A stretch of DNA of 64,000 nucleotides from an uncultured Comamonas sp. GTDB taxonomy: Bacteria > Pseudomonadota > Gammaproteobacteria > Burkholderiales > Burkholderiaceae_C. Of the stretch, positions 16,390 through 16,722 are shown piece by piece. Location of the stretch: positions 186,001-250,000 of the forward strand of contig CAMZGS010000002.1 in the NCBI GenBank assembly GCA_947306475.1. The letters run 5' to 3'. Position numbers and translations under genes: made by a program. Below the pieces are notes generated by a model that did no database searches, was not told the DNA's origin, and saw nothing but the letters and a program-made list of their open reading frames with translations. Positions within the stretch are counted from its first letter, which is position 1. Each line of letters opens with the position of its first letter.

Positions 16390-16722
16390 ATGCAAATATT
16401 CGTAAAAACACTTACAGGGAAAACAATAACATTAGAAGTCGAGGTGGATGATACTATTGAGAGCGTTAAATCAAAAATTCAAGACAAAGAAGGAATTCCA
16501 CCAGATCAACAGAGACTAATTTTTGCAGGAAAACAACTTGAAGAGGGGCGTACGCTCGCAGACTACAACATTCAAAAAGAATCAACTTTACATTTGGTTT
16601 TGCGCTTATTGATTAATCCACATCCTATTCCGTCAACCTCTGTTGTTAGTATAGGTTTAATGACTATAGGCCTTGGATTAATTGCTGGAATTATCTATCG
16701 GCGCAGTAAAATTAATTCCTAA
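16390..16722 (+). CDS. Cassette 5: eukaryote-like ubiquitin fused to a C-terminal membrane anchor
   Basis: The 110-residue product is ubiquitin for residues 1-73, then a new tail. Against human ubiquitin from memory only P19V, S20D, N25S, A28S, D52E and S57A differ (67 of 73 identical). All seven lysines (6, 11, 27, 29, 33, 48, 63) and the L8/I44/H68/V70 patch are kept. The RGG tail needed for conjugation is absent: after LRL73 comes a short Pro-containing linker (74-84), a hydrophobic helix (about 85-103) and RRSK, as in a tail-anchored protein. The ATG at 16390 begins the ubiquitin match; no Shine-Dalgarno is evident. The stop is in the attC core. AT-rich codons suggest foreign origin. Confidence 0.93.

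Follow-up and report, generated by a model that had tools for sequence, protein, structure and literature searches.

A near-eukaryotic ubiquitin with a predicted C-terminal membrane tail, lacking the conjugation motif, encoded in an integron cassette of an uncultured Comamonas sp.

The 64-kb stretch of DNA analysed in this work (the window) contains an open reading frame (ORF), P0001 (16390..16722, forward strand), that has no internal stop and encodes a 110-aa ubiquitin with a C-terminal membrane tail, as assigned by translation, family match, and alignment. P0001 lies in an integron array. In particular, the integron integrase IntI is encoded on the reverse strand at 13983..14999 (TIGR02249, 470 bits; cut-off, 265), and all attC-like hairpins found in the window, 15 on the bottom strand and 12 on the top strand, fall within 15317-22031. 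A control comprising 200 single-base shuffles of one strand of 15001-22100 yielded a mean of 0.9 attC-like matches (maximum, 4) and, for the short type, to which most real sites belong, 0.03 per shuffle (maximum, 1). P0001 is the single ORF between two forward-strand attC sites identified with a hairpin finder: the attC of the preceding cassette (16297..16352, seen on both strands) and the attC closing the ubiquitin cassette (16719..16773, bottom strand only), the latter identical at 52 of 55 positions to an attC at 5332-5386 of a second locus, L002, described below. Cassette boundaries fall at the G/TT of successive attC sites. The mobile unit extends over 421 bp from G/TT to G/TT (16349..16769, forward strand) and is the fifth attC-bounded unit from the integrase, since attC sites at 15317, 15596 (15596-15651), 15986, and 16297 precede it. 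The proximity of IntI, the flanking hairpins, the shuffle control, and the recurrence of the unit elsewhere confirm the location in an integron cassette that an earlier note, made from the sequence alone, had assigned to the gene. No promoter-like site was found at 16250-16850.

The array also contains repeated cassettes. One cassette is present at 15650-16041 and again at 18293-18684 (391 of 392 bases identical), before and after the ubiquitin cassette and adjoining it in neither case, which reflects either a recent duplication or a double capture. A second cassette ORF is likewise duplicated (15126-15320 and 20802-20996; 191 of 195 bases identical), and cassettes at 16797-17012 and 19010-19423 encode KTSC-domain and DUF4279 proteins.

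Residues 1-73 of P0001 (16390..16608, forward strand) constitute a ubiquitin domain by alignment, AlphaFold2 model, and fold match. Alignment to PDB ubiquitin reveals that 67 of these 73 residues are identical to eukaryotic ubiquitin, that the changed positions are exactly 19, 20, 25, 28, 52, and 57, that all seven lysines (K6, K11, K27, K29, K33, K48, and K63) are kept, and that the hydrophobic patch (L8/I44/H68/V70) is intact. Residues 74-76 are LIN where ubiquitin has RGG. P0001 matches Pfam ubiquitin PF00240 with 105.1 bits (cut-off, 25.4) and is the sole PF00240 match in the host genome. The AlphaFold2 model, computed from a 12-row alignment (mean pLDDT, 81), shows a ubiquitin fold and, C-terminal to it, a single helix (residues 85-108), and its ubiquitin part superposes on 5ifr_B at 0.5 Å over 73 columns. 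P0001 is thus ubiquitin by fold and sequence, without the C-terminal RGG needed for conjugation. The six differences, seven acceptor lysines, and intact recognition patch claimed by the earlier note are all reproduced, as are its LIN for RGG, Pro-containing linker, hydrophobic helix, and RRSK end (by translation and hydropathy), and its overall description holds: an integron cassette encodes a near-eukaryotic ubiquitin that has a membrane tail and cannot be conjugated.

A signal peptide directly before Met1 is absent in P0001. The one candidate is an alternative in-frame TTG start (16342..16389, forward strand) that would add 16 residues; the extension is weakly signal-like, lies outside the mobile unit, and has no counterpart in the L002 cassette, where an in-frame TAG is present two codons upstream of the ATG.

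The tail that replaces RGG comprises a 10-residue linker (residues 74-83; 16609..16638), a predicted transmembrane helix of 19 residues (residues 84-102 by hydropathy, with a mean KD of 2.22, and 85-108 in the model; 16639..16695), and a C-terminal YRRSKINS with the basic end RRSK (residues 104-107; 16699..16710), all on the forward strand. The linker contains IPS, resembling the [VI]P[ST] of IPTL-like tails. A profile built from 14 non-cassette tails, hand-picked as IPTL-like, scores the P0001 and L002 tails at 12.1 and 12.6 bits, respectively. Full shuffles reached the tail score in 0 of 1000 trials for each protein, and block shuffles, in which linker, helix, and end were shuffled separately, reached it in 3 of 1000 trials for P0001 (one at 16.1) and in 0 of 1000 for L002. 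The cassette tail thus either shares ancestry with IPTL-like sorting tails or has converged on them. Sorted surface proteins of the IPTL-CTERM type (TIGR04174) share with the cassette tails a [VI]P[ST]-type motif, a hydrophobic helix, and a basic end; the cassette ubiquitins differ from them in that neither the P0001 nor the L002 tail matches TIGR04174, in that neither has a signal peptide, and in that the host genome has no match to exosortase family PF09721, in a search for which the control was positive in 1 of 14. The host genome does encode one IPTL-CTERM protein. Assignment of the tail to a named sorting signal was rejected: in NCBIfam, at E values up to 10, P0001 matched only rad23. The C-side flank of the helix is positive in 17 of 17 compared tails, five of which are cassette variants, and is at least +2 in 16 of the 17.

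The earlier note had reported no E1, E2, E3, or deubiquitinase in the window, and for E1, E2, and JAB-type deubiquitinases this extends to the whole host genome. Specifically, no ubiquitin E1 was recognised, the best assignments of the two ThiF-type proteins being MoeB, with a score above cut-off, and TcdA, with one under cut-off; no JAB-type deubiquitinase was recognised, the one Prok-JAB match being RadC; and no ubiquitin E2 was recognised, a weak negative, since the E2 search gave no match in any control genome. MoeB, TcdA, and RadC are encoded on contigs other than that of the ubiquitin cassette. Bil and CBASS-type systems carry out bacterial ubiquitin-like conjugation with ubiquitin-fold proteins. 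P0001 is unlike them in having a near-eukaryotic sequence and no GG end, and membership of such a conjugation operon was rejected, as no linked E1, E2, or JAB genes were recognised in the genome.

The arrangement is not unique. L002 is a second ubiquitin cassette, located on a 6.5-kb contig of a Nitrosomonas metagenome-assembled genome (MAG) between its own attC sites (4939-4994 and 5332-5386), and is the closest full-length relative among the best 80 of 373 (77% identical to P0001 over 107 aa; 63 of 73 residues in the ubiquitin part and 19 of 34 in the tail). The same cassette type therefore recurs and is found in at least two lineages. The L002 ORF (5001-5369) extends into its own attC, which encodes QPTAYGGG, so that the protein ends in GGG past the helix, probably by chance. 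A search with the tail alone returned P0122, a 110-aa protein that is 96% identical to P0001, with an identical tail and four changes in the ubiquitin part, and that stands for 8 sequences on 6 short contigs, none of which can be the contig of the window because the longest has 5,360 bases. The L002-type tail returned 14 proteins at E ≤ 10, the Nitrosomonas protein among them and hence up to 13 further clusters; one, P0123, occurs on 8 contigs, and another, P0136, is a weak match (E = 0.36). Most of these proteins end in the L002-attC-encoded residues QPTAYGGG, suggesting that they are likewise cassette-encoded. Another of the 14, the 142-aa metagenomic variant P0135, appears fusion-like, with an unrelated acidic leader in place of the first ~20 ubiquitin residues and the tail mostly kept, and is either a misassembly or a real fusion.

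The fetched loci yielded no further accepted cassettes besides the window's own copies (L001 and L088) and L002. Seven loci (L014, L015, L021, L054, L058, L074, and L086) have at least two attC-like hairpins on one strand. In L021 and L074 the hairpins flank the gene, but each pair has one hairpin overlapping or abutting the coding region, and the pairs were taken as probable chance matches. Among plasmid records, two match, from Ruminococcus albus 7 and, weakly, from Pseudoalteromonas, and neither match reaches across the tail.

Comparison of the window and L002 by the Nei-Gojobori method gives a dN/dS of 0.058 at a dS of 1.28 for residues 1-73, showing that the ubiquitin part is under purifying selection, and a dN/dS of 0.336 at a dS of 0.84 for tail residues 74-107. 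Derivation of the tail by a frameshift in a normal ubiquitin gene ending in RGG, which the earlier note had allowed for, is rejected: the variants retain the tail, on which some selection acts.

The earlier note had taken the AT-rich codons to suggest recent transfer. As a pointer to a eukaryotic donor this is not supported: the two cassettes have diverged to a dS of ~1.3, each is more AT-rich than the DNA around it (ORF GC of 0.36 in a window of 0.57, and 0.40 in an L002 contig of 0.51), so that AT-richness is no pointer to a fresh eukaryotic donor, and in the prokaryotic set described below third-codon GC follows the surroundings. The gene does seem to be a recent arrival in this genome: it was found in 0 of 60 relatives searched, 36 of which belong to the same genus. 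A phylogeny on the 73 ubiquitin columns, computed with a view to the donor, has almost no resolution (1 of 102 inner branches starred), and one including the tails has 2 of 14 inner branches starred, with the cassettes grouped at 89/83 support, unstarred.

To place P0001 among prokaryotic ubiquitins, we read 86 loci: the best 80 of 373 relatives, confirmed among 490 pattern-matching stretches of prokaryotic genome contigs, and 6 viral-contig matches. Signal-peptide assignments rest on hydropathy together with an AXA-like box, and topology likewise on hydropathy. A hydrophobic stretch lies within the 32 residues before Met1 in 73 of the 86 loci, and an AXA-like box ends exactly at -1 in 64 of the 77 loci having a start codon 16-60 residues upstream. 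The 73 leader-bearing loci have a median identity to eukaryotic ubiquitin of 66 of 73 residues and a mean pairwise identity of 0.86 for protein versus 0.40 for third codon positions, and keep L8 in 72, I44 in 70, H68 in 71, V70 in 65, K48 in 68, and K63 in 71, conservation that is biased upward among the best 80 because these are the loci most like the query. GG is present at positions 75-76 in 18 of the 86. Third-codon GC correlates with flanking GC (Spearman, 0.79; n = 73), indicating that the genes have resided in their genomes for some time, the record titles of which include Conexibacter, Dyella, Loktanella, Rhodopirellula, Prochlorococcus, Ruminococcus albus 8, Fibrobacter, and Methanothrix, among others. 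Among the 13 loci without a leader are the L002 cassette and sequences that probably represent eukaryotic contamination, for example the polyubiquitin L031. In two Dyella genomes, a signal-like leader is followed by ubiquitin alone, ending in an intact LRGG in L025 and stopping at residue 73 in L046.

The regions that follow ubiquitin vary. Four of ten scanned leader-bearing proteins (L008, L010, L054, and L083) have an IPTL-CTERM tail (TIGR04174) above cut-off, L076 has an autotransporter-like end (43.7 bits, far under the model cut-off), and some loci have long unassigned regions. Three near-identical contigs from a viral collection (L083-L085) encode a leader-bearing ubiquitin with an IPTL-type tail, TIGR04174 having been scored on L083 alone. 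In draws with less selection bias, with the host's own genome counted, matches are present in 2 of 369 genomes of the class, 4 of 399 of the order, and 6 of 299 of the family. Read by eye, six of the nine other matches from these draws have a signal-like leader, three (L095, L096, and L099) do not, and seven of the nine end in a [VI]P..-helix-basic tail. The three signal-less genes are chromosomal, encode ubiquitin with a transmembrane helix, belong to the host's family, and lie on contigs of 4.5-5.5 Mb; visual inspection of the ORFs listed for three regions revealed no neighbours common to them. L092, L093, and L099 have 47-51% identity over the query and several changed patch residues. On these comparisons, the cassette gene is not an isolated acquisition from a eukaryote but one member of a large set of prokaryotic genes.

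Bacterial C-tail-anchored proteins such as YqjD and ElaB have one C-terminal helix followed by basic residues, and no signal peptide. P0001 is predicted to share this layout, with ubiquitin as its soluble part. The nearest known thing to the cassette ubiquitin is BfUbb of Bacteroides fragilis, described in PMC5705921 as a eukaryote-like ubiquitin that is secreted and lacks the terminal glycine; its target, as cited in PMC12396204, is a peptidyl-prolyl isomerase with a sensitivity residue. BfUbb is like P0001 in being a bacterial, eukaryote-like ubiquitin lacking the terminal glycine, and unlike it in having a 27-aa signal sequence, in being secreted, with 76 aa when mature, and in being less like human ubiquitin; P0001 has no signal, a membrane tail, and an integron cassette location. 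Babela massiliensis, according to PMC4378268, has secreted ubiquitin hydrolases rather than ubiquitin. Among the matches listed, all on-point papers on bacterial ubiquitin are on BfUbb or cite it, and no open-licence paper was found that joins ubiquitin with IPTL-CTERM, or bacterial ubiquitin with integron cassettes. The bacterial eukaryote-like ubiquitin is thus already known as a kind; the searches of open-licence papers turned up no account of the membrane-tailed, signal-less form, of its cassette location, or of how widespread leader-bearing ubiquitins are.

We tentatively propose, at somewhat under even confidence, that the cassette ubiquitin, which is unconjugable and has its C-terminal helix as a predicted inner-membrane anchor, is a decoy for ubiquitin-recognising proteins from outside. 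The helix would be a single-span inner-membrane anchor, with the ubiquitin part facing the cytoplasm; such a C-tail anchor is the simplest topology because neither the cassettes nor the three chromosomal kin have a signal peptide, while the basic end after the helix, by the positive-inside rule, would favour the opposite, non-cytoplasmic side. With no GG and no recognised ubiquitin E1 or E2, the protein would not be conjugated and would act by non-covalent binding through its intact Leu8/Ile44/Val70 face. We take the conserved surface to be the one used by eukaryotic ubiquitin readers, which favours mimicry. An outside partner is favoured because the eukaryotic surface persists in relatives whose C-terminal parts differ and whose DNA diverged long ago; the partners, the least certain element, would be toxins that require ubiquitin, or proteins of grazing protists or of hosts that bind ubiquitin or act as deubiquitinases. 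The decoy role is plausible, yet several points count against it. A cytoplasm-facing ubiquitin would meet outside proteins only once uptake, lysis, or toxin entry had occurred; not every relative retains the eukaryotic face, and mimicry cannot hold for all of them, given the changed patch residues of L092, L093, and L099; and BfUbb, the best-studied kin, acts on other bacteria, an analogy that would speak against a eukaryote-directed decoy. The wider proposal, that prokaryotes of many phyla display near-eukaryotic ubiquitin at their membranes and surfaces as a non-covalent mimic for the ubiquitin readers of eukaryotic grazers and hosts and that integron cassettes trade a membrane-tethered version, we regard as possible and rather doubtful.

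The positive C-side flank of all compared tails speaks for a different topology, in which the tail would serve as a stop-transfer anchor, leaving RRSK in the cytoplasm and the ubiquitin on the periplasmic or outer side after export through an upstream fusion or N-tail translocation. Leader-bearing relatives have the same tail type, and translation from the in-frame TTG in the window would add a short hydrophobic leader. Export of a fast-folding domain that lacks a signal is difficult, however, and the TAG upstream of L002, the lack of a hydrophobic leader on L095, L096, and L099, the position of the TTG outside the cassette, and the lack of an exosortase match in the host likewise argue against a periplasmic ubiquitin, which we consider somewhat unlikely. 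The signal-like leaders and missing GG of most of the 86 relatives, together with the inhibition by BfUbb of other strains of its species (PMC5705921), would fit an anti-bacterial competition factor, or protection against one, that binds a bacterial target and whose anchored form acts in the envelope. Both cassettes lack a signal peptide, the identity to human ubiquitin is reported as 63% for BfUbb (PMC3352274) versus 92% here, and the strain-inhibition assay in PMC5705921 compared bovine ubiquitin with BfUbb. A BfUbb-like role is considered unlikely.

The signal-less form could also be a degenerating capture. Integron cassettes are often silent, and the missing signal peptide and weaker tail constraint (dN/dS, 0.34) fit a functionless remnant of a captured signal peptide-ubiquitin-IPTL gene; the low dN/dS of the ubiquitin part at high dS, and numerous intact copies in other sequence sets, speak against this and leave it improbable. 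Eukaryotic contamination or an assembly artefact, raised by the earlier note and by eukaryotic-looking MAG contigs among the matches, such as L031, is a practically negligible prospect: attC sites flank the gene, the contig belongs to a genome that is 99.9% complete, the gene recurs with a matching attC in the separate genome record of L002, signal-less kin lie on megabase contigs, and the independent copies (L002, P0122, and the L002-tail proteins) rule it out.

Ubiquitin is usually regarded as a hallmark of eukaryotes, the most familiar exception among bacteria being Bacteroides fragilis. Should the ubiquitins described here, leader-bearing as well as anchored, prove functional, bacteria would use the ubiquitin surface without ubiquitin chemistry and would trade it on integron cassettes, and what a bacterium gains from an unconjugable ubiquitin would become a testable question.
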